64,000 nucleotides of DNA, from contig NC_017956.1 in the NCBI RefSeq assembly GCF_000264455.2, forward strand, positions 62,001-126,000, in the 5' to 3' direction. Numbering within the stretch: position 1 is the stretch's first letter; each line of letters opens with the position of its first letter. Source of the stretch: Tistrella mobilis KA081020-065 (lineage in GTDB: Bacteria; Pseudomonadota; Alphaproteobacteria; Tistrellales; Tistrellaceae). Shown here in pieces: positions 2,757-62,052 of this stretch. Position numbers and translations under genes: made by a program. The notes beneath the pieces were generated by a model. That model was given only the letters and a program-made list of their open reading frames with translations, was not told the origin of the DNA and ran no database searches.

Positions 2757-3855
2757 GACGCTCTTCCTTCAGCTTTTTTGACGCGATGAGCATGTCATTC
2801 ACGTCCTTGTATTCCGCCGGCGGCCGGGCGACCTTGACCGACGCATGCCGCTCGCCCAGCGCCGCCGCCGCGGCCGCGAAGGCCTTCGCCGCGTCCGACC
2901 CGGGCGGGTCGTTTTGCGCCCAAAGCACCAGGCCAGCGCTCTCGGGCAGCCGCAGATTGGCCAGATTGCCGCCGGACACCGACGCGATCACCCGCAGGGC
3001 CGGGTCACTGACCACCACCGACAGCCCGTCCTCGATCCCCTCGGTGATGTCGATCTCGATCGGGCCTTTGACCCGGCTGATCGGTGCGGCCTTCCGCAGG
3101 CGCCCGTCGGCGCCGGCGATCGCCCCCTTCCAGAGCGAAATCCACCCACCGCGGAAGCCGCCGAGGGTCTTTTTCGGCTCGTCAAGCGGCGCCTTCCGCA
3201 CGCGCCCGTCCCGCTGCACCTCCAGCCACGTCCGGTGCGTGGACATCTGTTTGCCGTCCGGCCCCACGATCGACGTCACCATGGCCGGCCATTTCTGCCC
3301 GGTCTCGGCATTCCACAGCCCGGGGTGATACCGGATCGCCCCGGGCAGCCAGGGCAGGCGCGCCAGCTCGATCGCCCGGCCGGCCAGATAGCGATCGACC
3401 GGCGTGCCCAGCAGCTCGCTAGAGGCGGACATCCAGATGCGCACGGCCGATTCGCGCGCTCGGCGTGCTTCCTCTTCAGCTTCCGCTTTCCGGGCCGCGG
3501 CTTTCTTTTCCGCGATCCGCCGCCGGCGCTCGAATTCGGCCGGGTCGCCGTCCTCGACTCCCAGCCACCGCCGTGCCCACTTGATCGCCTGCGTCTTATC
3601 CCCGCCGCAGCACACACCCGCGACCAGGTCGAGCGCGTCGCCGCTTTCGCCGCTCGAAAAATCCGCCCACACGCCCGTGCGTGCCTTGAGGTTGACAGCC
3701 AGCGACTGCCCGGGCTCGCCGGCCAGCGATCCGCACCGCCACTCGTGGCCGTGGCGGCTGCCATGGGGCAGCAGCTCGCGGACCAGCGGCTCTATCTGAG
3801 CGGTGAGCAGGTCGACGATCGTCGAAATCGGCATCAGGGCGGGGCGCTGGCTCAT
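2749..3855 (-). CDS. TOPRIM-domain primase-like protein
   Basis: This 368-aa protein carries a TOPRIM-type core: an acidic TEGIEDGLS motif at about residues 271-279 and WAQNDPPGSDA at about 312-322, matching the Glu and Asp-x-Asp metal-binding positions of phage primases. The N-terminal third (HEWRCGS, later VCCGG) sits where a primase zinc finger is expected but lacks a full CHC2 set. Residues about 108-138 form a charged coiled-coil-like linker. With the overlapping helicase gene it makes a primase/helicase pair for autonomous replication of the element. Transcription probably starts in the operator-flanked promoter region at 3882-3936. Confidence 0.78.
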   Translation of the reverse strand: MSQRPALMPISTIVDLLTAQIEPLVRELLPHGSRHGHEWRCGSLAGEPGQSLAVNLKARTGVWADFSSGESGDALDLVAGVCCGGDKTQAIKWARRWLGVEDGDPAEFERRRRIAEKKAAARKAEAEEEARRARESAVRIWMSASSELLGTPVDRYLAGRAIELARLPWLPGAIRYHPGLWNAETGQKWPAMVTSIVGPDGKQMSTHRTWLEVQRDGRVRKAPLDEPKKTLGGFRGGWISLWKGAIAGADGRLRKAAPISRVKGPIEIDITEGIEDGLSVVVSDPALRVIASVSGGNLANLRLPESAGLVLWAQNDPPGSDAAKAFAAAAAALGERHASVKVARPPAEYKDVNDMLIASKKLKEERHG

Positions 3856-3881
3856 GTCGTTGCCCCCGAAAAAATCGTGAA

Positions 3882-3936
3882 TGTCATAAAAAATATGACT
3901 TGCGCAGCCGCAAAGAATGTCATATTTTTTATGACA
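3882..3936. promoter_or_regulatory. Divergent promoter region with two GTCATA-N5-TATGAC operators
   Basis: Two perfect dyads of the form GTCATA-N5-TATGAC lie at 3883-3899 and 3919-3935, with centres 36 bp apart, between the leftward primase gene and the rightward gene at 3984. A rightward promoter TTGCGC (3900-3905), 17 bp, TATTTT (3923-3928) runs into the right dyad. A weaker leftward one, TTGCGG (3913-3908) with TTTATG (3890-3885), runs into the left dyad. The same operator recurs twice beside the HTH gene at 12437-12694, so that protein is the obvious candidate regulator. Sites are seen; binding is inferred. Confidence 0.75.
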
Positions 3937-3983
3937 TGAGGCGAGGCAATGACGCCCCGCATATCACCCGAAGGGCTGACGCC

Positions 3984-4289
3984 ATGTACACGATCGAGAT
4001 CCAGGGCGACGCGACCACCGCCACCCGCACCGAGACCTTCGCGACCCCGGAAGATGTCCTCCAGTATCTGCGCGATCGCCGCACCGGCACTTTCGTCTAC
4101 TCGATCAGCGAGGACAATGGTGTGCTCGAAATGCGCGGCCGCGCCAAAGCCCTGACCTATTTCCTGGACGACTTCGCCCCCCTGCATGTGCAGGTGCCGC
4201 GGCGGATCAAGATCATCCGCTGCGCAGGCTGGCCCTTCACGCACCACGTGGAGGGGTTGTGCCTCGGGCTGGACCTGGATCTGGCCTGA
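3984..4289 (+). CDS. Hypothetical element protein, 101 aa
   Basis: I do not recognise this protein. It begins MYTIEIQGDATTATRTETF and looks like a small alpha/beta fold with a central EDVLQYLRDR helix. The start at 3984 has AAGGG about 10 bases upstream; a longer frame from 3900 would run through the operator and is unlikely. It is the only rightward gene in the left half of the element and is driven from the dyad-flanked promoter it shares divergently with the primase. A strong bidirectional hairpin follows its stop. A control protein of the replication module is a possible role, without direct evidence. Confidence 0.6.
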   Translation: MYTIEIQGDATTATRTETFATPEDVLQYLRDRRTGTFVYSISEDNGVLEMRGRAKALTYFLDDFAPLHVQVPRRIKIIRCAGWPFTHHVEGLCLGLDLDLA

Positions 4290-4305
4290 CAGGTGACGGC
4301 AGACC

Positions 4306-4341
4306 AGGAAGGGGGGCGGGCTCATACCTGCCCCCCTTCCT
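4306..4341. terminator. Bidirectional hairpin terminator
   Basis: A perfect 12-bp stem (4306-4317 with 4330-4341, AGGAAGGGGGGC and its complement) with a 12-base loop lies between the rightward gene ending at 4289 and the leftward gene ending at 4322. It overlaps the last codons of the leftward gene. There is no long T run, so efficiency is uncertain. Confidence 0.65.
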
Positions 4342-4645
4342 CGTCGTCGTCCTCGTAGTCCTCGTCCCACTCACAATCGCCCTCGTCGGGCCAAGGGTCG
4401 CCGGTGTGCTCCAGTATCACACCGGCGGCCCAGTCCAGATTGCTGTCCGAAAGCTCCAGGCCGGCATCCGCCAGCGCCGCCCGAACCTCCGGATCGCGGC
4501 GAACGATCCACAACCACTCGCCGGCGTCATAGAAGTCGTCGTCCGGCTCCCATCCCCAGCTGTCCGCCCACGCGCACAGCTGCTCGCACAGCCGCTCACG
4601 GATGTGCAGCATCAGGTCAGAGGGGGAGGCGAGCGGCGCCGGCAT
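4322..4645 (-). CDS. Acidic hypothetical protein, 107 aa
   Basis: Unrecognised. The C-terminus is strikingly acidic (EGDCEWDEDYEDDDEE) and the body is rich in Trp and Asp (WADSWGWEPDDDFYDAGEWLW). Very acidic small phage proteins are often DNA mimics or inhibitors, which is only a suggestion here. The ATG overlaps the stop of the upstream 188-aa gene by one base (TGATG), so it is translationally coupled and last in a leftward series that starts at the HTH gene near 6681. Confidence 0.6.
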   Translation of the reverse strand: MPAPLASPSDLMLHIRERLCEQLCAWADSWGWEPDDDFYDAGEWLWIVRRDPEVRAALADAGLELSDSNLDWAAGVILEHTGDPWPDEGDCEWDEDYEDDDEEGGQV

Positions 4646-5211
4646 CAGAACGGGATATCCGAGGTATCATCCATGCCACCCAGCAGCAGGATGGCGAACG
4701 CCGCGTAATTGATAGCGCCCAGAAGCTCGACGCGGGCGACGGCATTTTCGCCCTGCCCATGCAGCAGGGCTGCCTCTTGCACCTTTTTCACAACCTGCCC
4801 GAGGCAATGCCCCGGACCGACCATCGCGCCGATCTGCATCACCGGCTGCTGCATCAGGTCAAGCGCGATACCATGCCGCGCCTGTCCCTTGCCACGGGCG
4901 ACGTCATCAAACGCCGTCAAATACGTGTGAGCGAGGCTTTTGAACCCGGGCAGGGGCTGGGGGCCGATGACGCTGATGAGCCAGTCCCGATGCTTGTCGC
5001 ACTGTTCTTCCCAGATCTTGCGAAGTGCCGCTTGATCTATCTGGGACATTTCATCGAGCAGCCGTTGAATGGCCCCGATTTTGTTTTTGATTGCCCGATC
5101 GGCTGCCCTGGCTTCGCGCTCCCGTTCGGCACGCTTGGCCTCCCCGACGCACCATTCCAGGGCCTCTTCCGGGGTCGTCTGCCCCCGCTTATCCGTGCTC
5201 CCGTCACTCAT
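4645..5211 (-). CDS. Hypothetical element protein, 188 aa
   Basis: Not recognised. The N-terminal half is charged and helical (EAKRAEREREARAADRAIKNK), suggesting a coiled coil. The C-terminal half contains a Gly/Ala/Leu-rich segment, INYAAFAILLLGG, near the end that could be membrane-associated or a buried helix. It overlaps the upstream 74-aa gene by 8 bases and the downstream acidic gene by one base, so it belongs to a tightly packed leftward operon of small early genes. Function unknown. Confidence 0.6.
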   Translation of the reverse strand: MSDGSTDKRGQTTPEEALEWCVGEAKRAEREREARAADRAIKNKIGAIQRLLDEMSQIDQAALRKIWEEQCDKHRDWLISVIGPQPLPGFKSLAHTYLTAFDDVARGKGQARHGIALDLMQQPVMQIGAMVGPGHCLGQVVKKVQEAALLHGQGENAVARVELLGAINYAAFAILLLGGMDDTSDIPF

Positions 5212-5428
5212 CGCGTCCCACCTCCATCACCCACACCGCCGCGGCCTGAAGCCGCCGCACGATCCACCACTTCACCGCCCCGCACCGCTCACCGGTGCGG
5301 AGGATCACCAGCACCAGGTGCAGCAGGGCCGAAGCGACCCAGATCCGCACCCGCAGCCGCAGCCGGACGGGGCCCTCCAGCGAATAGGCACTGACCAGCA
5401 GCCGCACCACGCGCGTGTACTCGCTCAT
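5204..5428 (-). CDS. Small basic protein with one hydrophobic segment, 74 aa
   Basis: The protein begins MSEYTRVVRLLV and has one hydrophobic stretch, IWVASALLHLVLVIL, flanked by Arg residues, followed by a second amphipathic part. It could be a single-pass membrane peptide. The start ATG at 5428 overlaps the stop of the upstream gene by four bases (ATGA), which supports this start over longer frames. Family unknown. Confidence 0.5.
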   Translation of the reverse strand: MSEYTRVVRLLVSAYSLEGPVRLRLRVRIWVASALLHLVLVILRTGERCGAVKWWIVRRLQAAAVWVMEVGRDE

Positions 5429-5928
5429 GCCGTCCCTCCCAGCCGCCGGCGCAGCTCGTCGATTGTCTGGCCGACATCCTCGATCGCCTGCGCGATCCGC
5501 CGGCGCTCGGCATCCCGGGTGGCTTCGGGCATCAGCACCTCGGCGACCAGCTGGGGCCCGTGAAGCACCGCGCCCAGCGCCAGCGCATCGGCCCGCGGCG
5601 CCTGGCCGGCCAGCCACGACCGCGCGGTTCGAACCTCGCAGCCGAAATCCCGCGCGATCGCCTTCGCGGCGTCGGCCGGATACCGGCGCCGCAGCGCCTC
5701 CGCCCAGCGCTGCCCGATCACCGTCGCATCGGTGCGGGCGGCTGCCGCCCGCAAATCCCTGGTCACCGCCGTCATGGTTCCCCTGTTCCTTTCCCGCGAA
5801 AGTTGCTCGCGGAAGGAGGGGGGCACACTACGGTCGCAGATCAGGTGCAGAACGCCTTGCACGGCCGGGGCTGCCACCCCGGCCGTTCGCGTCTCGGGAA
5901 CCCAGGCTGGGAAGAGCGGCCGCGTCAT
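5425..5928 (-). CDS. Hypothetical HTH-like element protein with two possible starts, 167 or 115 aa
   Basis: The long form begins MTRPLFPAW at 5928, where its ATG overlaps the upstream stop (ATGA) and GGAGGG precedes it. A second in-frame ATG at 5775 has its own strong ribosome site (AGGGGAA) just after a hairpin at about 5794-5816. The shared C-terminal part (ATVIGQRWAEALRRRYPADAAKAIARDFGC, then VRTARSWLAG) reads like a helix-turn-helix in which an AKAIARDFGCEVRTARSW segment is the recognition unit. The tail is charged and helical. A DNA-binding role is inferred from this pattern only. Confidence 0.55.
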   Translation of the reverse strand: MTRPLFPAWVPETRTAGVAAPAVQGVLHLICDRSVPPSFREQLSRERNRGTMTAVTRDLRAAAARTDATVIGQRWAEALRRRYPADAAKAIARDFGCEVRTARSWLAGQAPRADALALGAVLHGPQLVAEVLMPEATRDAERRRIAQAIEDVGQTIDELRRRLGGTA

Positions 5929-6194
5929 CGCACCACCCTCCCCGGTCGCGGAACACCGTCGGGCCAGGCCGCGCCCTCGGGCCAGTGGTCCGCCAGCCAG
6001 CAGGTGGCGCGCCACCACGTCGTCAGGCGGCATGTTCCGCCGGCGGCCAGCCGGCGGGCCAGCCGCGCATCCCCCGCCGCCCGCATCGCCAGCGTCGCCG
6101 GCGTCACGCCCTGCGCAGCCGCGGCCGCAGCCAGGGCCGCGGCCAGGTGGGCGGTCAGGGCGGATGGGGAGGGGCGGGGGACGGGGGCGGTCAT
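5925..6194 (-). CDS. Hypothetical small protein, 89 aa
   Basis: An Ala-rich helical N-terminus (LTAHLAAALAAAAAAQGV) is followed by an Arg-rich part with TWWRATCWLADHWPEG, reminiscent of small phage regulatory proteins that precede the HTH-like gene downstream. The ATG at 6194 overlaps the upstream stop by one base (TGATG); a TTG at 6197 is in frame but weaker. The family is not recognised and the protein is included because of its tight packing between two other genes of the same operon. Confidence 0.5.
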   Translation of the reverse strand: MTAPVPRPSPSALTAHLAAALAAAAAAQGVTPATLAMRAAGDARLARRLAAGGTCRLTTWWRATCWLADHWPEGAAWPDGVPRPGRVVR

Positions 6195-6454
6195 CAATGG
6201 CGGGCCGCTGGATCGCCGATCAGCACCGCGAAAGGCGTCGGATGACTCCCTTTGGGCGCGATCGCAAGATTAGCCTCCAGCCCGTCCAGGCTGACATTCG
6301 CGGCTGCCGGCTGATATCCCGGTGTCAGCCCCAAGAACTGAAACTGCAGGCCACAGTCAGAGCAGTGGATGCGCACTTCGGCCCGGTACTGGCCTATGTC
6401 TTCCAGCCGCGCGACCGTCACCGTGGCGTCAAAGGTCAGGTGTTTGCAGCTCAC
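6194..6454 (-). CDS. Phage zinc-ribbon-like hypothetical protein, 86 aa
   Basis: The protein begins MSCKHLTF and has an HCSDCGLQFQFLGL segment. The four ligands Cys3, His5, His30 or Cys31 and Cys34 could bind zinc. Proteins of this look (a CxxC followed by a GL-rich loop and a VSLDGLEANLAIAP-type ending) are common, uncharacterised phage and prophage genes. The start overlaps the stop of the HTH gene upstream by four bases. It is the second gene of the leftward operon. Confidence 0.6.
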   Translation of the reverse strand: MSCKHLTFDATVTVARLEDIGQYRAEVRIHCSDCGLQFQFLGLTPGYQPAAANVSLDGLEANLAIAPKGSHPTPFAVLIGDPAARH

Positions 6455-6681
6455 GCGGCCTCCTTGCCGCCGGCGGCGGCGGCCCGGGCGACATGCGCCC
6501 GATACATATCGGCCTCGGTCACCGCTCCGCCGGTGACCTGCACGATGCGCGCCATGATGGCCGGCCGCGGCACCCGCTGGCCGGCTTCATATCGCGCGTA
6601 AGCGGGCTGGCTCACGCCGATACGGTCGGCGAGGGCTTCCTGCGTCAGCTTATGGGTGCGGCGATAGGTGATCAGATCCAT
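6451..6681 (-). CDS. Cro-like XRE-family transcriptional regulator
   Basis: This 76-aa protein is essentially one helix-turn-helix domain (YRRTHKLTQEALADRIGVSQPAYARYE), as in Cro/C1-type regulators. I chose the ATG at 6681; a GTG at 6687 is also in frame. A promoter TTGACG (6716-6711), 16 bp, TATTGT (6694-6689) ends only about eight bases before the ATG, so the message is probably leaderless or nearly so. An ATACCAA-type operator sits between its -35 and -10 boxes. It is first in the leftward operon and divergent from the second XRE gene at 6785, as in a lambda-type switch. Confidence 0.8.
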   Translation of the reverse strand: MDLITYRRTHKLTQEALADRIGVSQPAYARYEAGQRVPRPAIMARIVQVTGGAVTEADMYRAHVARAAAAGGKEAA

Positions 6682-6784
6682 GACCACGACAATACCAATT
6701 TGGCATTACGCGTCAACAGGCGATCGAAATCGGCATGCCACCTTGGTGTTGGGCACAGATATACCGCATCGGTATAATATATAC
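6682..6784. promoter_or_regulatory. Switch region: two divergent promoters with two distinct operators
   Basis: The leftward promoter (TTGACG 6716-6711, TATTGT 6694-6689) contains the dyad ATACCAATTTGGCAT at 6692-6706. The rightward promoter (TTGGGC 6749-6754, 18 bp, TATAAT 6773-6778) contains a different perfect dyad, TATACCG-CAT-CGGTATA, at 6760-6776. The first dyad recurs twice before the rightward operon at 7557-7606, while the second is unique. One regulator controlling both early operons and the other controlling its own gene is the simplest reading. Which HTH binds which site is not shown. Confidence 0.75.
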
Positions 6785-7120
6785 ATGTCCAGGTTGCGTG
6801 AAATCCGAGAGAAACAGGGGCTTTCGCAGGCAGAGCTTGCGGAGCGTGCCGGCACGTCTCAATCCCAGATTGACAGGCTGGAGAAGGGGCATCGCCGGCT
6901 GACCGTCGACTGGCTCAATCGGCTGTCCCAGGCGCTCCGATGCACGCCGACCGAAATTCTCGAAGCGCCGAAGCCCGGGCTCGCCCCCGACGAGCAAGCA
7001 ATCCTTGATTTGTATCGGGCGCTTAGTGCGCCGAATAAAGAGAATGTTATTAGAATTGCTGGTGCGCTGGCGGAACAACAGCCACATACAAACGGAGCCA
7101 CAAAAAACGGCACTTCTTAA
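6785..7120 (+). CDS. XRE-family repressor-like protein (C1-type)
   Basis: This 111-aa protein has an N-terminal helix-turn-helix (REIREKQGLSQAELAERAGTSQSQIDRLEKG) and a short C-terminal helical tail (DEQAILDLYRALS) of the kind that mediates dimerisation in small repressors. The TATAAT box ends seven bases before the ATG, predicting a leaderless transcript, as known for several phage repressors. A dyad overlapping that promoter suggests autoregulation. It is divergent from the Cro-like gene and followed by a membrane protein gene, so it is the best candidate for the immunity repressor. Confidence 0.8.
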   Translation: MSRLREIREKQGLSQAELAERAGTSQSQIDRLEKGHRRLTVDWLNRLSQALRCTPTEILEAPKPGLAPDEQAILDLYRALSAPNKENVIRIAGALAEQQPHTNGATKNGTS

Positions 7121-7143
7121 TCTCACCAAGGAGCGGAAATGCA

Positions 7144-7557
7144 ATGACACCTCGTGAAGCCGGATTATTTATCGATGGATTTTACGGACTTATCATCCCA
7201 GCCGCTGCCTTAATATTCATGCATTCCTCGCTTGCCATGATACGGTGGGCGCCAAAATCAGATCACGTCGAAACGCAGGTTATTTATTACGAGAGAGAGC
7301 CGCATTATTCTATTTGCATTCTGTTTTCATTCGCGATTTATGGATGGCTGTTCACATTTCAACCCGCCTGGATTGCGCCTGTATACTTTATCGGCATCAG
7401 CTTTTTGTCCGGATATTACTGGTCGAGTGGCGGCCCTGAAATGACCGACATGCGCATATCCGACAGCCGAAAGTTGATAAAGCCGATGATATACGCCGGT
7501 TCGGCTGCGGCTGCGGGCCTCTGGCTGGTCGGCGCCCGGGCCTTGCGCTGGATCTAA
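7144..7557 (+). CDS. Membrane protein next to the repressor, four predicted TM segments
   Basis: This 137-aa protein has four hydrophobic stretches: around residues 10-30 (FYGLIIPAAALIFMH), 55-72 (ICILFSFAIYGWLF), 75-92 (IAPVYFIGISFLSGYYW) and 115-135. A strong AAGGAG lies about 12 bases before the ATG. Base composition is lower in GC than the genes around it, which hints at separate acquisition. It would be expressed with the repressor in the integrated state. Genes in this place in temperate phages often encode superinfection exclusion or other host-protecting functions; that is inference from position only. Confidence 0.6.
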   Translation: MTPREAGLFIDGFYGLIIPAAALIFMHSSLAMIRWAPKSDHVETQVIYYEREPHYSICILFSFAIYGWLFTFQPAWIAPVYFIGISFLSGYYWSSGGPEMTDMRISDSRKLIKPMIYAGSAAAAGLWLVGARALRWI

Positions 7558-7609
7558 TACCAAAATGGCATTAATTCGCGATTGACGGCTTATACCAAAT
7601 TGGCATGAT
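7557..7609 (+). promoter_or_regulatory. Right early promoter with two ATACCAA-type operators
   Basis: Dyads ATACCAAAATGGCAT (7557-7571) and ATACCAAATTGGCAT (7592-7606) are spaced 35 bp apart. The promoter TTGACG (7582-7587) with CATGAT (7604-7609, 16-bp spacing) embraces the second dyad, the same layout as the leftward promoter at 6689-6716. Repressor bound there would block RNA polymerase and keep the rightward operon (7642 to the integrase) silent. Confidence 0.7.
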
Positions 7610-7641
7610 GAAGGCATCTCAACCCTGAGAGGCTAAATCTC

Positions 7642-7863
7642 ATGTCCTTTTCCGACTTGCCCGCAGCCTACCTGTGCGAACAGGTGGTGCGGGCCATCGC
7701 CGCGCGGCGCGTCGCCGCCGGCAGCTGCACCCGCGCGGATCTGGCCGCGCGCTTCGCCCCCGACATCCTCGACCGCTGGTACGACACGGCCGACCGCATC
7801 GTCGACAGCCGCCTGCGCTCCCCGTCGCAGGCCCTGGAGCTGCTGGAGGTGGTCAATGGCTGA
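7642..7863 (+). CDS. Hypothetical small protein, 73 aa, first gene of right operon
   Basis: Unrecognised helical protein (YLCEQVVRAIAARRVAAG, later YDTADRIVDSRLRSPSQALELL). It is the first gene after the operator-controlled right promoter, and its stop overlaps the start of the next gene by eight bases. Coding is supported by strong third-position GC bias and the overlap. No function can be named. Confidence 0.55.
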   Translation: MSFSDLPAAYLCEQVVRAIAARRVAAGSCTRADLAARFAPDILDRWYDTADRIVDSRLRSPSQALELLEVVNG

Positions 7864-8269
7864 CACCCCCACGCAGTATCACGCCACGATCATGATCATC
7901 CGCGATCACCGGATGACCGCCTCGGCGTGCATGCCGGGCGACAGCCCCGAAGCCGCCATTCAGGCCGTGCAGGGGTGGATCATGTCGATGTATCCGACGC
8001 CTGTTTCCGCCCTGTCGGTGCCTCTGCGCGCGGAGGCCTCCGCAGCCGTGCAGGCCTGCGTGGGCGTGGCACGACAGATTGATAAGCTTCTGTCCAGCAC
8101 GGTGTTCCCGGCCGACAAGATGACGGCCCTGACCATCGGCTACGCCGACAAAGTCGACGGCGTTCCGGCCGCGACGGCGGCCATGTGGATCAACGACGCG
8201 TCGCTCTCGTGCATCACCGACAAGCTGCTGGTGCCCGCTTTGCTGCGGGCACTGACGGAGGGGGTGTGA
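7856..8269 (+). CDS. Hypothetical element protein, 137 aa
   Basis: Unrecognised. The sequence is a mixed alpha/beta protein with an early YHATIMIIRDHRMTASACM strand-rich segment and later helices. It overlaps the upstream gene by eight bases and its stop shares one base with the next start (TGATG). It is part of the rightward series of small uncharacterised genes between the early promoter and the integrase. Confidence 0.55.
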   Translation: MADTPTQYHATIMIIRDHRMTASACMPGDSPEAAIQAVQGWIMSMYPTPVSALSVPLRAEASAAVQACVGVARQIDKLLSSTVFPADKMTALTIGYADKVDGVPAATAAMWINDASLSCITDKLLVPALLRALTEGV

Positions 8270-8670
8270 TGGACAGCCCTGCGGCATATAGCGCATGCCT
8301 GATGATCTGGAATGAATTCGGCGTCTACGGTCACGTCCGCAGAGACGGCGCCACACCTCAGACCGCAGCTAAGGAGGTCTGGGAAGACATCATGGATGGC
8401 ATGACTCCTCCGTGTCGATATCCATCACCACAGCATCAGCAACGGTCTCTCGCTATCGCGCACATCACCGCCCGCGCCTATCTTGATGCCGTGAGTAAGG
8501 CGGCTTCTCTGAGCAGTCACCAAATTACGATCGCCGCCGGCTTCTGCGCTCGCGACGAATTGAAGTGCGCAATTGCCGTGACTCATTATGAAATGATGCC
8601 CATCAATTCTGTGACCCGACGGGCGCTGATGAAGCGACTTCTTGATGAAAACTTCGCGGGGAAGGATTGA
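8269..8670 (+). CDS. Hypothetical element protein, 133 aa
   Basis: Not recognised. It is predominantly helical, with ALMKRLLDENFAGKD at the C-terminus, and shares a repeated theme with its neighbour at 7856: a short N-terminal MIWNEFGVYGHVRRDG stretch followed by a helix beginning TPQTAAKEVWEDI. The start at 8269 is fixed by the one-base TGATG overlap; the longer frame from 8185 would overlap the upstream gene heavily. Confidence 0.55.
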   Translation: MDSPAAYSACLMIWNEFGVYGHVRRDGATPQTAAKEVWEDIMDGMTPPCRYPSPQHQQRSLAIAHITARAYLDAVSKAASLSSHQITIAAGFCARDELKCAIAVTHYEMMPINSVTRRALMKRLLDENFAGKD

Positions 8671-8674
8671 TGTC

Positions 8675-9391
8675 ATGCGCGTGAACGTCTACGCCGAAGA
8701 GATGACCGACAAGATCGAGATCATCTCGAAGACCATCGACGGCCAGGATTTCACCGGCCTGCGCTTCTGGCTTCATCTGCCCGTGACCCTGCCGTCGGGA
8801 GACCAGGTCCGCGGCCCCTTCATGCACCATCCGGGCGACGATGACAGCTCGGCGGTGACCTTCTGGGGCAAGCGGGATCTGCGGTCCCTACTGGCTCAGG
8901 CGCTGAAGGCGCTGGACCAGCACTATGGCGCGACACCGGAAGAAATGATCTGCGTCGACCTGATGCAGCAGGTCAGGCAGCGCCTCACTGCGTCCGGCCG
9001 CACCGGCTGGCATAATCCTTTTGAATGTCCGACATCGCATCTGGTGCAACGGCTGATCGCCAATCTGCGCAGCGACAGGGAATATTCGCTTCTTGATGTC
9101 ATCGCATATGCGATCTTTTTGCATCATCGCGAAAGATACCCCTTCTCCGGCTGCGACCTGCTGAAAGAGCGGATCTTCGCCGCCTACGACGAAGTCTGGA
9201 CGGCGGCCGATGATATTCTGGACGCGCTCCGCGCTTTGCTGACGGCCCATGCCGATTTCGCCGCTGAGGTGAATTTCACGCAATCGGCGATCCCCGCCGA
9301 TGTCATCCACGAGATGGATGCCGCCGTCCAGCAGGCTTCCGAGGTCCTTCGGAAGCTGGACGCGGCGGATGAAGGGGAGGCCACCCCATGA
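8675..9391 (+). CDS. Phage hypothetical protein (MRVNVYAEE type), 238 aa
   Basis: The start at 8675 follows a GGGGAAGGA ribosome site. The first roughly 90 residues (MRVNVYAEEMTDKIEIISK, then GPFMHHPGDDDSSAVTFWG) match a conserved hypothetical seen in many alphaproteobacterial phages and prophages from memory. The remaining part (SLLDVIAYAIFLHHRERYPF and a long helical tail) looks like a second module fused behind it. Function is not known for either part. It overlaps the next gene by four bases (ATGA). Confidence 0.6.
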   Translation: MRVNVYAEEMTDKIEIISKTIDGQDFTGLRFWLHLPVTLPSGDQVRGPFMHHPGDDDSSAVTFWGKRDLRSLLAQALKALDQHYGATPEEMICVDLMQQVRQRLTASGRTGWHNPFECPTSHLVQRLIANLRSDREYSLLDVIAYAIFLHHRERYPFSGCDLLKERIFAAYDEVWTAADDILDALRALLTAHADFAAEVNFTQSAIPADVIHEMDAAVQQASEVLRKLDAADEGEATP

Positions 9392-9807
9392 CCATCACCC
9401 CCGATCAGCTGAAGCCCTGCCCTTTCTGCGGGGCGCGCGCCGTTATGGACGAGGACGATTTCGGCGGGTATCACACGGCCCGCTGTGTCCGATGTCTCGC
9501 TGAAGGCCCCGTTGATCTGCTGCTCAACAAGGGCGCCTATCGGGGCCCCGACGCGCTGCTCCACGCCTGGAACAGCCGCCCCGAAGCCACGGCGCTCGAA
9601 ATCGCCATCTCCGCCCTCGCCTTCATCGCCGAGGGCTACGCCCGAGGCGACGTGAATCACCAGGACTACCGCGTCAAGGCGGCCGCGGCCGCAGACGACG
9701 CGCTGGTCAAGATCCGCGCGCAGCTGCCCGGGCTGACCATGCCGCCGCTGCCCGATCGCACATGGGGCGGCTTCATGCCGGGCAGCCAGGAGGACGATCC
9801 CTCATGA
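9388..9807 (+). CDS. Lar-like restriction alleviation family protein
   Basis: The N-terminal 65 residues show the Lar-family layout: LKPCPFCGARAVM, then CVRCLAEGP, then an ALLHAWNSRP ending, with two CxxC pairs that would bind zinc. Lar of the Rac prophage modifies type I restriction activity and is carried by many phages to reduce host restriction. The last 75 residues are helical and not part of the usual Lar domain. Family assignment is good from the motif. Anti-restriction activity here is inferred, since many Lar-domain proteins are untested. Confidence 0.7.
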   Translation: MTITPDQLKPCPFCGARAVMDEDDFGGYHTARCVRCLAEGPVDLLLNKGAYRGPDALLHAWNSRPEATALEIAISALAFIAEGYARGDVNHQDYRVKAAAAADDALVKIRAQLPGLTMPPLPDRTWGGFMPGSQEDDPS

Positions 9808-10085
9808 CTCAGATCATCGATCTGGCAGCCGCCCGCGCCGCGCGCGGCCTGCCGTCCTGCGCCGCGCGTCTGCTGCTCGCCGATCGCGCCCGCGCCTTCG
9901 CCGCCGCCATCCGGCCGGCCCCGTCGCCGGCGATCCGGGCCGGAACTCGGGTCCGCTGGATCGGCGCCGACGGTCTGCCCCATGTCGACCAGGCCACCAC
10001 CATCGCCGGGGGGCTGGCGATGGTGACGGAAGCCGGCCGGCGCCGGTGGATCAGCCTTCGGGAAGTGGAGGTGATCCATGGCTAA
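9804..10085 (+). CDS. Hypothetical small protein, 93 aa
   Basis: Starts MTQIIDLAAARAARG and has a C-terminal half rich in beta-strand (AGTRVRWIGADGLPHVDQATTIAGGLAMV) that resembles a small SH3-like or KOW-like barrel. The ATG overlaps the Lar-like gene by four bases and the stop overlaps the next gene by eight. Not recognised as a named family. Confidence 0.55.
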   Translation: MTQIIDLAAARAARGLPSCAARLLLADRARAFAAAIRPAPSPAIRAGTRVRWIGADGLPHVDQATTIAGGLAMVTEAGRRRWISLREVEVIHG

Positions 10086-10434
10086 GGGCCTCCCTGCCGG
10101 CACTGTGCCCGGCCTGCGCTACCTGATCGGCAAGATCAGCGGCAAGATCAATAACATTGACGCACGCATCAAGTCCCGGAGTACTCACGATCTGGCTGAC
10201 CAGATCGAACAGACGAAGTACAGAGAAACGGAGATGAGGCGGTTCCTGCAAGGCATCATCGCAGATGTTCCCGCGGCACGCATGACTGAAGGCCATCACG
10301 CGATGACGCTTTTTGTCCTGGGCGCGCGGACCACCTGCACCAGCGGCTATTATCAGCTCGCCAAGAACTGGATCCGCGCCGCGGAACGTCGGATTTTCAC
10401 GCTCACAGGGGAGCGCAGCCATGAATCGCTCTGA
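10078..10434 (+). CDS. Hypothetical element protein, 118 aa
   Basis: A basic, helical protein (LIGKISGKINNIDARIKSRS at the N-terminus, a charged middle, and YYQLAKNWIRAAERRIF near the end). No family recognised. It overlaps both neighbours (8 bases upstream, 14 bases downstream), in keeping with the compact operon. Confidence 0.55.
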   Translation: MAKGLPAGTVPGLRYLIGKISGKINNIDARIKSRSTHDLADQIEQTKYRETEMRRFLQGIIADVPAARMTEGHHAMTLFVLGARTTCTSGYYQLAKNWIRAAERRIFTLTGERSHESL

Positions 10435-10678
10435 AATCGAAGCCTGGACCAGCGCCCACGCCGCTGACCTGGCCAAGGCCGCGGAGCACCCCGAGGCGAT
10501 TCATCACCTTCTCTCCCAGCCCTCCGCCGGCCAGCTCGCCTATCGGGCCATCGGCTTCGCGGCCGAAGCGGAAGGCGCCATCGCCGCCGGCGCCGACGAC
10601 GTCGCCCGCCGCAAGCTGCTGACGTGCAGCCTGCTGTGCGCGGTCTCGCTCAAGCTCCTGCGGGAGGGCAAGCGCTGA
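10421..10678 (+). CDS. Hypothetical small protein, 85 aa
   Basis: The start at 10421 follows an AGGGGAG ribosome site inside the end of the previous gene. The protein is all-helical (MNRSEIEAWTSAHAADLAKA, then AEAEGAIAAGADDVARRKLL). The stop overlaps the next start by one base (TGATG). Function unknown. Confidence 0.55.
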   Translation: MNRSEIEAWTSAHAADLAKAAEHPEAIHHLLSQPSAGQLAYRAIGFAAEAEGAIAAGADDVARRKLLTCSLLCAVSLKLLREGKR

Positions 10679-10995
10679 TGGCTGACGACGTCCCGCCCCA
10701 GCTGCTGACCATGGCGGACCTGGCGCAGATCTTCAGGGTCCGCCCGGACACCATCTATCGGCGGCTGCCGAAGCTCCAGGCCGACGGCTTCCCGCCGCCG
10801 GTCTGGGGCCGGCTCTGGGATCCCCGCGCCGTCGACCGCTGGCTGCGGGAGCGGCAGGGCCTTCCCGCCGCCCCCGCTGCCACGCCGGCAGCCCCTGAAG
10901 CCGCCCCGGCCGACGCGGACCGCGCCCGGCGCCTGAGCGAGCGCGCGGCCCGCGTGGCCGGCCAGGTCGGCCGGCGGCGGAAGGCCCTGCACTGA
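10678..10995 (+). CDS. AlpA/MerR-like HTH protein, candidate excisionase
   Basis: The first 55 residues form a winged helix-turn-helix of the AlpA/excisionase type: LTMADLAQIFRVRPDTIYRR followed by a DPRAVDRWLRER ending, the standard place where such proteins bend DNA at attachment sites. The remainder is an Ala/Pro-rich linker and an Arg-rich tail. It sits directly before, and overlaps by one base, the integrase gene, which is the usual place for a recombination directionality factor. It could instead regulate integrase transcription. Confidence 0.7.
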   Translation: MADDVPPQLLTMADLAQIFRVRPDTIYRRLPKLQADGFPPPVWGRLWDPRAVDRWLRERQGLPAAPAATPAAPEAAPADADRARRLSERAARVAGQVGRRRKALH

Positions 10996-12203
10996 TGGCC
11001 ACGGTCAAGGTGCCCTATCTGCGGCGGCGCCAGTACAAGACCAGCACGGTCTATTACTGGCAGCCGTCAGCCAGCCTGGCCGCAGCCGGCTGGCCGCTGG
11101 TGCGGCTGCGGCTGCCCGACGGCACGCCGTGCACCACGGAACACGACGCAGCCGCCGCGGCCGGCCGGATCAATGCCGAAGTGGCCCGCTGGCGCCGGGG
11201 CGAAACCCCGGCGCCGCAGGCCGGCCGGCAGCCGGCGGCCTACAAGACCACCACCAGCCTCGCCGCCCTGGCGGATCACTATCAAGCGAGCCTGCGCTTC
11301 AAGCGGCTCGCCCCCAAAACGCGGTACGAATACGGCCTGTGCCTGCGGGTGATCGTCGATTGGGCGGGGCGCGAGCCGGCCCGATCGATCACCCGGGGCA
11401 TGGTCGCCGACTTCTACGCCCAGCTCTATCAGGCGAGCCACAGCCGCGCGAATGCCATCCTCCGCGTGCTGCGCCTGCTCTACAGCTATGCGTGCAGCCT
11501 GGACCGGACACACCTGCTGTGGTGCCCGGAAAATCCGGCCAGCGCCCCGGAAATGATTTCCACCCCGCCGCGCGTCCGCGTATTTACGCGCGAGGAAGAG
11601 GCGGCCTTGATCACCGCGGCCGATGCCGCCGGTGAGCCATCCATCGCCGATGCGCTGCTGATCGGGATCTATGTCGGCCAGCGCCAGGCCGATATCCTGT
11701 CGCTGACCCTGCGCCAGCTGATCGAGACCCCGGAAGGTCTGCGGGTCCGGATCCAGCAGGCGAAGACCAAGGCGCAGGTCGACATCCCGCTGCACCCCCG
11801 CCTTGCCGATCGCGTGCGCCGGGCCATGGCCCGCGCGCGGCTGCTTCGGTCAGAGCGGGTCATCCTCGATCGCGCCGGCCGGCCGTGGACGGCCGACCAT
11901 TTCCGGCGGATCTTCCAGGGCCTCCGCGACGGCCCGGCCGCGCGGCTGGCGCCGACCGTCGTCACCGCGCGTTTCCAGGACGCGCGCGACACGGCGGTCA
12001 CCCGGCTGGCGGAGGCCAGCGCCACGATCCCGGAAATCTGCGCGGTCACCGGCCACGACCTGGAGCACGCGACCCGCATCCTGCACCACTATATGGCCCT
12101 CACCGGCCAGATGGCGGACAGCGCCATCGCCAAGCTGGTGACCCATGAAGCCCGCGAGACCAAGACACCGCCGCCGCAGGCCGAAGCCGCCGGCGCCGAA
12201 TAA
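10995..12203 (+). CDS. Tyrosine-type phage integrase
   Basis: This 402-aa site-specific recombinase has an N-terminal arm-binding and core-binding part (about residues 90-190, a SAM-like helical fold) and a C-terminal catalytic domain. Visible catalytic residues are Arg230 (in IYVGQRQAD), Lys259, Arg331 (in FQDARDTAVTRL), His354 (in VTGHDLEHA) and Tyr366 (in RILHHYM). The usual first His of the HxxR box is Gln328, a substitution I believe occurs in related integrases. It lies about 1.8 kb from the tRNA-Thr gene, whose 3' end borders the element, so that tRNA is the probable integration target. Confidence 0.9.
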   Translation: MATVKVPYLRRRQYKTSTVYYWQPSASLAAAGWPLVRLRLPDGTPCTTEHDAAAAAGRINAEVARWRRGETPAPQAGRQPAAYKTTTSLAALADHYQASLRFKRLAPKTRYEYGLCLRVIVDWAGREPARSITRGMVADFYAQLYQASHSRANAILRVLRLLYSYACSLDRTHLLWCPENPASAPEMISTPPRVRVFTREEEAALITAADAAGEPSIADALLIGIYVGQRQADILSLTLRQLIETPEGLRVRIQQAKTKAQVDIPLHPRLADRVRRAMARARLLRSERVILDRAGRPWTADHFRRIFQGLRDGPAARLAPTVVTARFQDARDTAVTRLAEASATIPEICAVTGHDLEHATRILHHYMALTGQMADSAIAKLVTHEARETKTPPPQAEAAGAE

Positions 12204-12204
12204 A

Positions 12205-12237
12205 AAGGGCGGCCCCGCAAGGGAGCCGCCCTTCTTG
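12205..12237 (+). terminator. Intrinsic terminator after the integrase
   Basis: A 9-bp stem (12205-12213 with 12225-12233, AAGGGCGGC and complement) begins just past the integrase stop and is followed by a short T-rich CTTCTTG. It would end the long rightward operon. Confidence 0.7.
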
Positions 12238-12276
12238 ATTGGCCGTGAGCCACGATGTGGCAGTCGGCCTTTGCAT

Positions 12277-12425
12277 GCTTACAAAAGCATCAGTTTCAAT
12301 CCAACACCAGCCAGCGGGCTGGTGACCACACCGTCGGCGATCCCCGATGGTGCTTCGTCGCGCCGAACTGACGCTTACAAAAGTGCCAGTTTCAACCCAA
12401 CGACACCGGCGCCGAAGCCCCGGTG
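12277..12425. repeat. Two-copy repeat, each copy followed by its own GC hairpin
   Basis: A 29-bp sequence starting GCTTACAAAAG and containing CAGTTTCAA occurs at 12277-12305 and 12373-12401, 96 bp apart, with 25 of 29 positions equal. Each copy runs straight into a stem-loop: 12305-12312 with 12317-12324 (CACCAGCC and complement, 4-base loop), and 12404-12409 with 12420-12425 (CACCGG and complement). The stem sequences differ between copies yet both still pair. No convincing gene covers 12204-12436. Integrase arm sites or a structured RNA are the two main readings. Confidence 0.65.
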
Positions 12426-12436
12426 CGACAGAAACA

Positions 12437-12694
12437 TCATCCGTCCTGACTGATATTATTGTCAACCATAAATTGCTCAATTTCGGCAGCCGCGGCTGCG
12501 GCAGCGGCTGCGCGCCGCGCGGCCGCATCCCGCAGCATCAGGACATCGTCAGGCAATAGCTCACCCTCGACCTGCCATCGGCGCACTGTCCGATAGGTGA
12601 CGCCCGCATCCCGGGCGAAAGCGCTCTGCCATCGCGCCGTCCCGTACACGCGCTCAGCGAGGCGATTGAATGCAGTCAGATTGATCGTGGTCAT
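12437..12694 (-). CDS. Small HTH regulator, candidate reader of the GTCATA operators
   Basis: This 85-aa protein contains a helix-turn-helix (ARWQSAFARDAGVTYRTVRRWQVEG) followed by an Ala-rich helix (RRAAAAAAAAAEIEQFM). The ATG at 12694 has GGAGG seven bases upstream, which makes it a better start than the longer frame from 12751, which would run across an operator. A GTCATA-N5-TATGAC dyad at 12710-12726 lies just upstream, suggesting autoregulation. The same dyad at 12778-12794 faces the rightward genes, and two more lie before the primase. Its size and position also resemble Aca-type regulators that sit beside anti-CRISPR genes, but homology was not tested. Confidence 0.75.
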   Translation of the reverse strand: MTTINLTAFNRLAERVYGTARWQSAFARDAGVTYRTVRRWQVEGELLPDDVLMLRDAAARRAAAAAAAAAEIEQFMVDNNISQDG

Positions 12695-12709
12695 GGCGGG
12701 GCCTCCTTT

Positions 12710-12794
12710 GTCATATAGATTATGACAATCTTGCCGCGTTCGCCACCGCATTTTCCTGTTGACGGGCGTTCGATGATGTCATAAAAATTATGAC
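12710..12794. promoter_or_regulatory. Two GTCATA-N5-TATGAC operators and a rightward promoter
   Basis: Perfect dyads lie at 12710-12726 and 12778-12794, with the same 5-base spacing as the pair at 3.9 kb. A rightward promoter TTGACG (12759-12764), 17 bp, TAAAAA (12782-12787) has its -10 box inside the right dyad. Transcription would start at about 12794, next to the ATG of the tiny gene at 12795. The left dyad covers the leader of the HTH gene. Confidence 0.75.
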
Positions 12795-12893
12795 ATGACG
12801 AAGCGGGGCGCCCAACAGAAAGGGGCGGCCCGAAGACCGCCCCTCACCATTACCGGTCGCCCGGCCTACCTGTCGAAGCTGAAAGAGAAATAG
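12795..12893 (+). CDS. Possible 32-aa leaderless peptide gene
   Basis: The frame starts at an ATG placed at the predicted transcription start, directly behind the operator, with no room for a ribosome site, so translation would be leaderless. It encodes a basic peptide (MTKRGAQQKG at the start, RPPLTITGRPAYLSKLKEK at the end). An 8-bp GC stem (12821-12828 with 12837-12844) lies inside it and could act as an attenuator. Its stop codon abuts the CRISPR-like repeat pair. It could equally be a truncated gene remnant or chance; the placement is what makes it worth listing. Confidence 0.3.
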   Translation: MTKRGAQQKGAARRPPLTITGRPAYLSKLKEK

Positions 12894-12970
12894 GGTCTAT
12901 CCCCGGTAGCCCGGGGGAACATTCGGCTTCTTCACCAGGTAGGGTCCATCCCCGGTGGCCCGGGGGAACC
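12893..12970 (-). CRISPR. Type I-E-like CRISPR repeat pair with one 20-bp spacer, no cas genes
   Basis: Two 29-bp repeats (12893-12921 and 12942-12970) agree at 26 of 29 positions and are separated by 20 bp. Read on the minus strand each has the type I-E build: GTTCCCC at the left, a 6-bp stem CCCCGG/CCGGGG around a GCTA or GCCA loop, then GGGGATRGACCC at the right, comparable with the known E. coli repeat (stem-GCCA-stem, then GATAAACCG). The 20-bp spacer is far shorter than the 32-33 bp of real I-E arrays. No cas gene is in the window. An orphan mini-array or an RNA-based anti-CRISPR-like element is more likely than a working array. Confidence 0.6.
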
Positions 12971-13003
12971 AAGCGATCATACAGGATCGGAAAGGCCTGT
13001 CAA

Positions 13004-13219
13004 ATGCCCGAGAACGCGAAGCTCTATGAGCGCATTTATTTTGCCCCGTCCGCCGCCAATCTGCATCGCCTCTTCGACCAGCTCGGCGCCGACGCTTCGT
13101 ATCTCATGCTCCACCGCTACGGGCGGAATCACTGGGCCGTGCAGCGCCACGGCACCATCGTCACCGAAGGCGACTGGCAGGACGTCAAGCGCTGGTGCGC
13201 GGAATATCTCGCCGGTTGA
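13004..13219 (+). CDS. Hypothetical small cargo protein, 71 aa
   Basis: The start has GGAAAGG about 10 bases upstream. The sequence (AKLYERIYFAPSAANLHRLF, then YLMLHRYGRNHWAVQRHGTIV) suggests a compact alpha/beta protein. It lies 33 bases past the CRISPR-like repeat pair and begins a rightward group of three small genes that ends at a strong terminator. Not recognised; an accessory or inhibitor function is possible only by position. Confidence 0.5.
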   Translation: MPENAKLYERIYFAPSAANLHRLFDQLGADASYLMLHRYGRNHWAVQRHGTIVTEGDWQDVKRWCAEYLAG

Positions 13220-13229
13220 GGGCATAGCT

Positions 13230-13640
13230 ATGAATAGCATCGCGAAATTCAAGCCCATCGATCCGGCGCTTGCCCGGGCACTTCTCGAATTCGTAGATCG
13301 GCGTAATCTTGGAAAGACCGTGGACATCGACGGACAGGATTATGTCCTGTCCTACATTTCCCAGAACAGCAATGCATTCTTTCAGTCGCGCGGGCTGTCC
13401 ATCTACTTCAAGACCGCGCGTTCGATTATCCGCATTTCGGATCACTGGTCGAAAAGCCTCGGCAACGAGCGCAGCCGAAAGCTGAACTGCGGATCGATAT
13501 CAGGCAAGACCTGGATCCTGGATGGTGCGACCGATCGTATCAGCTTCGACCGCTATGCCGGTAAATATCCATGGGTGATGCTCGCCGGAAAATGCGGGCT
13601 GGCGAGCCTGAACAAAACCTGTGACCACTGGTCGGAGTGA
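13230..13640 (+). CDS. Hypothetical cargo protein, 136 aa
   Basis: Begins MNSIAKFKPIDPALARALL; the core RGLSIYFKTARSIIRISDHW has a strand-rich, basic look, and the whole resembles small phage proteins of unknown function. The ATG at 13230 is the first plausible start 10 bases after the upstream stop; the longer frame from 13026 overlaps the previous gene completely. AT content is slightly higher than in the flanking genes. No family named. Confidence 0.5.
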   Translation: MNSIAKFKPIDPALARALLEFVDRRNLGKTVDIDGQDYVLSYISQNSNAFFQSRGLSIYFKTARSIIRISDHWSKSLGNERSRKLNCGSISGKTWILDGATDRISFDRYAGKYPWVMLAGKCGLASLNKTCDHWSE

Positions 13641-13645
13641 TACAG

Positions 13646-13903
13646 ATGAATGTCTATCCGGTACCCGATGCCCTTCAGCATCACTACAAGGGGCGAGGGA
13701 TTGCCCTCGGCGCCACCAGGAATGGCGAGCTGGTCGCTCTGGTCTATGTGCGCGACCTGATCCCCGACTTCGCCGATACCGTCGAGGCGGCCCCCTCGAT
13801 CGGCGACAACGCCCGGGTGGCACAGGTCGCCCGGGCGCTCGAAAAAGATTTCGGCTTCGTCCGGGTCGGTATCGTTTCCAGCTGGGAATTCTGCGAGCTG
13901 TAA
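13646..13903 (+). CDS. Hypothetical cargo protein, 85 aa
   Basis: Starts MNVYPVPDALQHHYKGRGIA and ends FGFVRVGIVSSWEFCEL. The start ATG is three codons into a slightly longer frame and lies 5 bases after the previous stop, so the two genes are probably co-transcribed. It is the last gene before the terminator and the tRNA. Unrecognised. Confidence 0.5.
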   Translation: MNVYPVPDALQHHYKGRGIALGATRNGELVALVYVRDLIPDFADTVEAAPSIGDNARVAQVARALEKDFGFVRVGIVSSWEFCEL

Positions 13904-13915
13904 TCTGACAAGGGA

Positions 13916-13953
13916 CAGGCCGCATGCGCATCATTGCATGCGGCCTGTTTTTT
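13916..13953 (+). terminator. Strong intrinsic terminator at the end of the element
   Basis: A perfect 12-bp stem (13916-13927 with 13936-13947, CAGGCCGCATGC and complement), an 8-base loop and a run of six T make this the clearest intrinsic terminator of the window. It insulates the cargo genes from the tRNA. Confidence 0.9.
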
Positions 13954-13955
13954 GA

Positions 13956-14020
13956 AGTTGAACGTTCAACTCTTCAGAGTTGAACGCACCCGCCTGAACA
14001 GGCGCTAACCCCTTGAAATC
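13956..14020. other. Palindrome and direct repeat beside the tRNA, candidate attachment-site arm region
   Basis: A perfect 16-bp palindrome AGTTGAACGTTCAACT lies at 13956-13971, and its half AGTTGAACG is repeated at 13978-13986. This short AT-rich stretch fills the gap between the last terminator and the tRNA 3' end at 14021. That is where integrase or accessory-factor sites of an attachment region would be expected. The role is inferred. Confidence 0.4.
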
Positions 14021-14095
<75 letters not shown>

Positions 14096-61842: not shown

Positions 61843-62052
61843 GCGGTGGACTCAATCGGGGAACCGGCAGCCGGGGCCATGTGACGCAGGCCGTCGCGGT
61901 CAGCCGGTCGCCTGTCGCCTGTCGTCCGACGGAGAGCCGGCGCCCTGCCGTTCGCTGCCGGGCGTCCTGGTCCGGATCCGCACCCGCTGAGGGGTCGGGG
62001 GATGCGACCGGACGACGTAGAGCCAAGAAACCCAACTGGAGTCGGGAGATCT

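Follow-up and report, generated by a model that had tools for sequence, protein, structure and literature searches.

We identified, in a prophage of Tistrella mobilis KA081020-065, a closely set pair of type I-E-like CRISPR repeats, which is likely to be a gene for a small untranslated RNA. This RNA would mimic a minimal I-E crRNA precursor and, in the manner of the RNA anti-CRISPRs known as Racrs, would act as a decoy that ties up Cascade proteins and lowers immunity. Read directly from the DNA are a unit composed of a promoter, a repeat, a short spacer, a second repeat and a hairpin, the predicted fold of this unit, a I-E system in a congener, and spacers of that system which match the prophage. 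The stretch analyzed, hereafter the window, is 64,000 nt long (positions 62,001 to 126,000 of NC_017956.1), and coordinates given without a prefix refer to it.

Two I-E-like repeats enclose a 20-nt spacer

The first repeat in the direction of the predicted RNA, R2, occupies positions 12942-12970 of the minus strand (29 nt, GGTTCCCCCGGGCCACCGGGGATGGACCC), with the predicted 5' end of the RNA at about 12970, and the second, R1, occupies positions 12893-12921 of the same strand (29 nt, TGTTCCCCCGGGCTACCGGGGATAGACCC). The two copies lie 49 bp apart from start to start, are identical at 26 of 29 positions (93% identity across 30 nt), and enclose a spacer of 20 nt on the minus strand (TACCTGGTGAAGAAGCCGAA, 12922-12941) for which we found no convincing target. 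When the 64-kb window was searched with the repeat pattern at up to three mismatches, only R1 and R2 were found, with no match in 100 shuffles, and the same search of the 6.5-Mb genome to which the window belongs (G000) also returned R1 and R2 only. The pair is thus real and beyond chance, and the two 29-bp repeats, 20 bp apart, that an initial annotation of this DNA had described are borne out in coordinates, in identity and in the shuffles. At the same tolerance, the repeat was absent from the 95 other genomes searched, most of which belong to the same class (1 of the 96 matched, namely its own). Further, a scan of genome contigs with the pair's own pattern returned no match, and a sequence search with the 111-bp repeat region returned nothing better than an E value of 1.

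In RNA folding, each repeat formed a 6-bp stem with a 4-nt loop, which reads GCCA in one copy and GCUA in the other; the stem-GCCA loop-stem design initially proposed therefore holds for the stem of both copies but for the loop of only one. The fold z-scores were unremarkable (-1.6 and -1.8 for the single repeats and -1.1 for the pair). The spacer had been called too short for a normal I-E crRNA, and it is indeed 12 nt shorter than the usual 32 nt. Based on the fold, the comparison of repeats described below and the I-E crRNA anatomy set out in parts of PMC12235044, we predict that Cas6e would release a product of 49 nt (12901-12949, minus strand), consisting of the 8-nt handle AUGGACCC, the 20-nt spacer and a 21-nt part with the 3' stem-loop. 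Pairing between the spacer and the tail within this RNA was not significant (319 of 2000 shuffled spacers were equal or better).

A promoter directly precedes the repeats

Directly upstream of R2, we found a sigma-70-type promoter, TTGACA-16-TATGAT, which matches at 11 of 12 positions (12976-13003, minus strand) and ends 6 nt ahead of the GTTCCCC of the first repeat; transcription would therefore be expected to start at about the first base of that repeat. No other site of at least 11/12 occurs in the prophage or, with both strands considered, in the 64-kb window, and the expected number of such sites within the 5-nt range of offsets is about 4e-5. The initial annotation, which had seen no strong promoter to the right of position 12970, was mistaken on this point, as the site lies there, on the minus strand and in crRNA sense. 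Downstream of the pair, a terminator-like hairpin, recognized from the fold and by eye, lies at 12814-12843 on the minus strand (GGGGCGGTC-TTCG-GGCCGCCCC, then TTTCTGTT), and a fold of a 166-nt stretch that includes this UUCG-loop hairpin with its T-rich tail had a z-score of -3.6. This predicted hairpin would end the RNA. It is absent from the list given by the terminator scan, we suppose because the Ts are taken up into the longest stem.

The repeats resemble those of a complete I-E system in a sister species

Among 96 genomes (the host's own, that of one congener and the rest from the same class), Cas6e was present in three, one of which is the congener, the sister species G001. G001 encodes Cas3, Cas8e, Cas11e, Cas7e, Cas5e, Cas6e, Cas1e and Cas2, that is, a complete I-E system, and has two arrays with 18 and 26 repeats, spaced by 61 nt with one exception of 54 nt (one 26-nt spacer among 42). 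Its repeat reads GGTTCCCCCGC[AG][CT]GGGCGGGGATAGACC, followed mostly by C, and each copy of the window pair is identical to the G001 repeats at 23-24 of 29 positions; the comparison with I-E repeats of relatives, which the initial annotation had proposed as a check, thus yielded both a matching repeat and a complete system. The differences are confined to the loop, the loop-closing pair and two single bases, namely position 1 in one copy and, in the other, position 24 within the handle. We note that the loop-closing pair (columns 11 and 16) is changed on both sides, from C-G to G-C, a compensated change that keeps the stem. In an alignment of 10 repeats, 60 of 60 pair cells were paired; the covariation amounts to one pair, with both changed copies in the window locus, and its score was reached by 18 of 500 shuffles.

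The resident genome itself gave no match to Cas6e or Cas7e, in agreement with the initial description of the element as one without cas genes, and has a 3-repeat relic I-E array, which has a transposase gene and an RT-Cas1 gene next to it. As neither Cas protein was found and this relic is the only such array there, the RNA would matter in other hosts. Over the 70 bases upstream, the relic array is identical to G001 array 1 at 63 positions, and it therefore has the genus leader, whereas the window pair is identical at only 16 of 70 and is without an array leader. When the upstream sequences were aligned with gaps to that of G001 array 1, the window pair scored -4 and a solitary repeat on contig C3 of G001 scored 30. 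The latter repeat was considered as a Racr candidate and set aside, as its upstream sequence looks by eye like the genus leader; the locus, a leader-like stretch and one I-E repeat, cut off (L049:10269-10296; G001:C3:37269-37296), probably represents a relic array, and its contig is 63 kb long.

Other CRISPR-related loci were seen in these genomes. In the resident genome, an RT-Cas1 fusion gene lies downstream of repeats spaced by about 66-71 nt, by a transposase gene and the 3-repeat, leader-bearing I-E relic (L048; G000:C2:411001-431000). Elsewhere, a Cas3-like gene proved to be a lone HD-helicase of 803 aa (L130:7429-9840; G000:C4, minus strand), with no array in the 20 kb examined around it, and G001 has a similar frame.

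The existence of relics in this genus raises the alternative that the pair is itself a decayed CRISPR mini-array, taken up by a phage and now functionless, or a former weapon against other phages. We regard this as unlikely. The repeats do deviate from the consensus of the genus, G000 and G001 do contain a relic array and a relic repeat, and short spacers do occur in real arrays, as seen for the 26-nt spacer of G001 and for 12 short-spaced array pairs elsewhere. However, the pair has no leader before it, it has a strong promoter match directly ahead of it, and its stems are intact, with a compensated change. We also compared the spacer with IMG/VR in exact form with one free position, and the sole exact match besides this element is flanked on the 5' side by TAC and not by AAG; one such match is about what we estimate, by hand, to be the chance expectation in so large a collection.

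G001 spacers match the prophage

The pair lies in an integrated phage, as the initial annotation had recognized. A perfect direct repeat of 50 bp, present at 14017-14066, where it overlaps tRNA-Thr, and at G000:C1:40380-40429, bounds a prophage of about 35.7 kb with genes for an integrase, a terminase, a head-tail adaptor and tail proteins. The two G001 arrays have 42 spacers, and we compared this prophage with all of them except the 26-nt one (41 spacers). Spacer L007_24 matched at 33 of 33 positions in a tail gene, next to AAG, a canonical I-E PAM (AA before the match, G as its first base), and spacer L007_13 matched at 31 of 33 positions in a virion gene, with AA before it. A third spacer, at 26 of 33, was not above the best control; of the two controls, 49.9 kb of flanking host DNA gave a best value of 26, and a set of 123 shuffled spacers gave 24. 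The host's own relic array has two spacers, which matched the prophage at no more than 12 bases, and a search of G001 for the targeted tail protein, run without a positive control, gave no match. Because two G001 spacers match the prophage, the I-E system mimicked by the pair seems to keep a memory of such phages.

The spacer of the pair looks targetless

In its own genome, the 20-nt spacer had no site other than itself at up to three mismatches, and in G001 it had two sites with three mismatches each. A search that required one of four PAMs (AAG, ATG, AGG, GAG) and a match at 6 or more of the 7 seed bases found no site in either the prophage or the 20-kb stretch that contains the G001 cas genes. 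With looser PAMs and three registers, the best of the prophage matches listed were partial, with runs of up to 8 nt and two of them next to AAG, and shuffled guides gave, under these looser rules, a mean of 9-12 such matches. By sequence comparison, then, the spacer looks targetless.

These searches bear on a second alternative, in which the pair would encode a CreA-like guide RNA whose short spacer steers Cascade to a phage or host promoter and represses it. Shortened spacers can still form Cascade, to go by the title of Kuznedelov 2016, and most creA genes are reported to have two repeats around a spacer analogue (PMC8501985). Pairing of the spacer with a promoter, beside a PAM and across seed positions 1-5 and 7-11, was, however, seen neither in the prophage nor in the G001 cas region, nor among the genome patterns with three mismatches or fewer, and we consider a CreA-like guide quite unlikely.

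Genes beside the pair and a possible second RNA locus

Genes of the acr or aca kind are common near Racrs but are not a requirement; beside the pair lie three small ORFs without a family match and a gene for a helix-turn-helix (HTH) protein weakly related to known regulators. The phage integrase (10995-12203, plus strand) was recognized by a family match. The small HTH protein (12437-12691) is encoded downstream of the pair on the same, minus strand and weakly matches phrog_12690 and MerR; the Aca-like role suggested for it is tentative. On the plus strand lie ORFs of 71 aa (13004-13219), 136 aa (13230-13640) and 84 aa (13649-13903). The first is a possible small cargo or candidate acr gene; a Foldseek search with its structure model (pLDDT 77) gave nothing at E ≤ 0.001, and the model of the 136-aa protein (pLDDT 33) was of no use. 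Sequence symmetry points to a palindromic operator-like site at 12709-12727 (TGTCATATAGATTATGACA) and a second copy at 12777-12795 (TGTCATAAAAATTATGACA).

Given that operator-like palindromes lie nearby and that the pair, as two dyad-symmetric direct copies, sits upstream of the ORF at 13004, the repeats might be DNA operators, or attenuator or terminator hairpins, of the adjacent small genes with an accidental I-E likeness, but this is very improbable, as the likeness to the I-E repeats of the sister species extends beyond the palindrome to the asymmetric handle and the 5' flank, neither hairpin has a T-run directly after it, and the genus repeat pattern finds, in G000 and G001, only the window pair, arrays and relics.

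In a search for the same pair in related elements, also proposed initially, the IMG/VR contig L003 was found to carry it. L003 is identical to the window at 12,616 of 12,616 bases (1288-13903); it is therefore probably the same element and no independent evidence, and as the only other copy found it cannot show conservation within the lineage. A distant blastn search of 12400-13960 against phages and plasmids returned nothing. A related-locus search with the HTH protein returned no relatives and says little, because it also missed the identical copy in L003; the same type of search with the 71-aa protein returned one weak relative besides the same element.

We also noted a possible, speculative second RNA gene on the minus strand (12200-12465). 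A promoter-like site, TTGACA-18-GATGAT (10/12), lies at 12436-12465 and overlaps the end of the HTH gene. It is followed by two hairpin modules with GTTGGRTTGAAAC, 96 nt apart, each with GTTGGRTTGAAACTGRYRCTTTTGTAAGC after it, and by a strong terminator-like hairpin at 12202-12236; the fold z-score is -6.8. A match to the Rfam family CRISPR-DR9 is weak (E value 0.22, far under the cut-off) and hints at a mimic of another CRISPR type. A repeat with the tail of this locus was not found in the G000 and G001 stretches examined. A second decoy gene, directed against another CRISPR type, may lie here (about 12431-12200).

Proposed mechanism and relation to known systems

We infer the following course of events for the decoy. 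RNA polymerase would begin at roughly the first base of R2 and run to the hairpin some 155 nt further on, where it would stop. If the host has the I-E system of the genus, Cas6e would bind and cut both repeats, and the resulting 49-nt RNA, with its 5' handle, its 3' stem-loop and a 20-nt guide that is 12 nt below the usual 32 nt, would tie up Cas6e, Cas7e, Cas5e, Cas8e and Cas11 in shortened, non-targeting complexes. Such sequestration of Cascade would lower I-E immunity against the phage. Shortened-spacer Cascades of E. coli reportedly form and can act. The usual I-E crRNA is described as 61 nt long in all, with a 32-nt guide and six Cas7 subunits (PMC12235044); at 6 nt per Cas7, a figure stated for type I-F (PMC10651486), a guide that is 12 nt short would be expected to hold two Cas7 subunits fewer.

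The initial annotation had read the pair as a possible RNA anti-CRISPR of the Racr type. That reading is supported by the promoter, by the I-E system of G001, by the two matching spacers and by the absence of a convincing target of the pair's own; it falls short in that the unit is not a solitary repeat but a two-repeat minimal array with a short spacer. Like Racrs, as portrayed in the relevant parts of PMC10651486, the pair is a CRISPR-repeat mimic in a prophage, with no cas genes seen adjacent, its own promoter directly upstream and the subtype present in a related host. In the terms of the Racr survey, we found repeat mimicry (23-24 of 29 positions identical to G001, below the 90% of SRUFinder, with the same 6-bp stem), a mobile element without cas genes, a predicted promoter within 250 bp upstream (11/12, at 6 nt) and the cognate subtype in a congener, and, in place of a solitary single repeat, two repeats 49 nt apart around a 20-nt spacer. 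The predicted products differ as well: ours would have a 5' handle and a 3' stem-loop, whereas the inhibitory product of RacrIF1 is reported, in the same source, to be without the handle and to gather Cas6f and Cas7f. A non-targeting crRNA alone is also reported there to reduce interference (PMC10651486), and by analogy the window unit would be nearer to this case than to RacrIF1. We found no report of paired-repeat Racrs in the open-licence literature searched. As PMC10651486 describes it, SRUFinder, the tool of the survey, groups full matches that are no more than 100 bp apart into arrays, which it removes, and it drops matches below 90% identity; closely set pairs would thus have been missed.

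Three further comparisons are instructive. First, viral CRISPR mini-arrays, as characterized in the review PMC11656645, likewise have few repeats in a virus, with no cas genes seen adjacent. Unlike their repeats, which are identical to those of a host array, the window repeats match those of the congener at only 23-24 of 29 positions, the spacer has only 20 nt, and no target in a related virus was found beside AAG, IMG/VR being the only collection used for the virus comparison. Second, CreA of CreTA, as depicted in parts of PMC8501985, shares with the window unit two repeats around a spacer analogue and the expected 8-nt 5' handle and 3' handle; the window unit differs in that it lies in a prophage, not beside cas genes, and no fitting target was recognized. 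Third, the I-E arrays of G001 have the same register of flank, 6-bp stem and 8-nt handle, but they are spaced by 61 nt (once by 54 nt) with the genus leader on array 1, whereas the window pair has neither the 61-nt periodicity nor such a leader (49 nt; upstream 16/70).

Similar units elsewhere

We scanned for an I-E repeat with a second GTTCCCC at a short distance, which gave four stretches in IMG/VR (L003 being one) and 55 in genome contigs. There were 60 matches in all, and four with N in the spacer were left out; 11 of the remaining 56 were isolated sets with a second hairpin, L003 included. When IMG/VR was scanned separately for I-E repeats with a promoter 4-10 nt ahead of them, L123, L050 and L003 were returned. 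Apart from the window prophage, four loci, each a set of two or three I-E repeats, deserve mention. L064 (1987-2060; Pantoea sp. BAV 3049) has closely set repeats with a promoter-like site 6 nt before them, its second repeat also being terminator-like; L050 (10124-10278; IMG/VR) likewise has closely set repeats and a promoter-like site 6 nt before them; L123 (1957-2078; IMG/VR) has such a site at the same distance before repeats with the usual 61-nt spacing; and L068 (5801-5915; Erwinia endophytica) has closely set repeats but no clear promoter at the 6-nt distance. L064 and L068 sit among phage genes. The spacing from repeat to repeat is 49 nt in the window, 63 and 50 nt in L050, 50 nt in L064, 50 and 42 nt in L068 and 61 nt in L123. 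In L003 (probably the same element as that of the window), L050, L064 and L123, exactly 6 nt separate the end of the -10 box from the first repeat; the promoter matches are 11/12, 9/12, 8/12 and 9/12, respectively (that of L123 by eye), and the scan that returned L050 and L123 had a promoter 4-10 nt upstream as a requirement.

An HTH regulator gene lies near the repeats in four of these five loci; it is directly upstream in L064 and L068, upstream with an ORF between in L050, and downstream in the window. When the window HTH protein was compared by phmmer with the proteins of 63 loci and the window, it matched those of L068 (3.5e-5) and L064 (3.7e-4), and weakly that of L050 (E value 0.16). 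Five of the eight matching records of phage HTH relatives were examined, and none of the five had a convincing I-E repeat nearby (two gave one poor match at up to four mismatches, which we did not count). The promoter-fused pattern, in a form with an 8-nt core that the window's own 9-nt-core repeat cannot match, was found in none of 397 genomes of the phylum. With respect to spacing, a start-to-start distance of 49-50 nt was measured in 7 of the 11 isolated sets (those with a second hairpin and no more than three repeats near), compared with 5 of 31 GTTCCCC hits that occur by chance within arrays (p=0.006) and 3 of 12 short-spaced array pairs (p=0.10), and both of the two isolated sites whose second element is no hairpin were also at 50 nt; the preference for 49-50 nt is suggestive only.

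Tentatively, and with somewhat more doubt than belief, we propose that these loci point to a class of phage decoys made up of a promoter and, immediately after it, two or three repeats set apart by a shortened spacer, from which Cas6 would make a complete but truncated and targetless crRNA, giving poisoned mini-Cascades about two Cas7 short. The window prophage, L050 and L064 would be independent members and L068 and L123 looser ones, and the 100-bp rule of the survey would miss them.

The scans also returned loci of other kinds. L013 (5386-5412) and L014 (2184-2210), both from IMG/VR, hold solitary I-E repeats and are possible ordinary Racr candidates; L014 has a terminator-like hairpin after the repeat, and no good promoter was found within 100 bases in either. 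Isolated close I-E repeat pairs with no clear promoter at 6 nt occur in L052 (1273-1335; IMG/VR), L072 (2795-2851; a Rhodobacteraceae MAG), L061, L078 and L097. L011 and L012 (IMG/VR 3300022181_000093, filed as viral) have 42 and 15 I-E repeats, respectively, of the same general type.

The locus described here lends itself to a direct test, as the matching immune system, with spacers against the prophage, resides in the sister species G001. If the proposed class is real, RNA anti-CRISPRs would also have a two-repeat form, which makes a whole, shortened crRNA and not a handle-less fragment. Further, as the published survey rule removes this two-repeat form, the phages that use repeat mimicry would have been undercounted.
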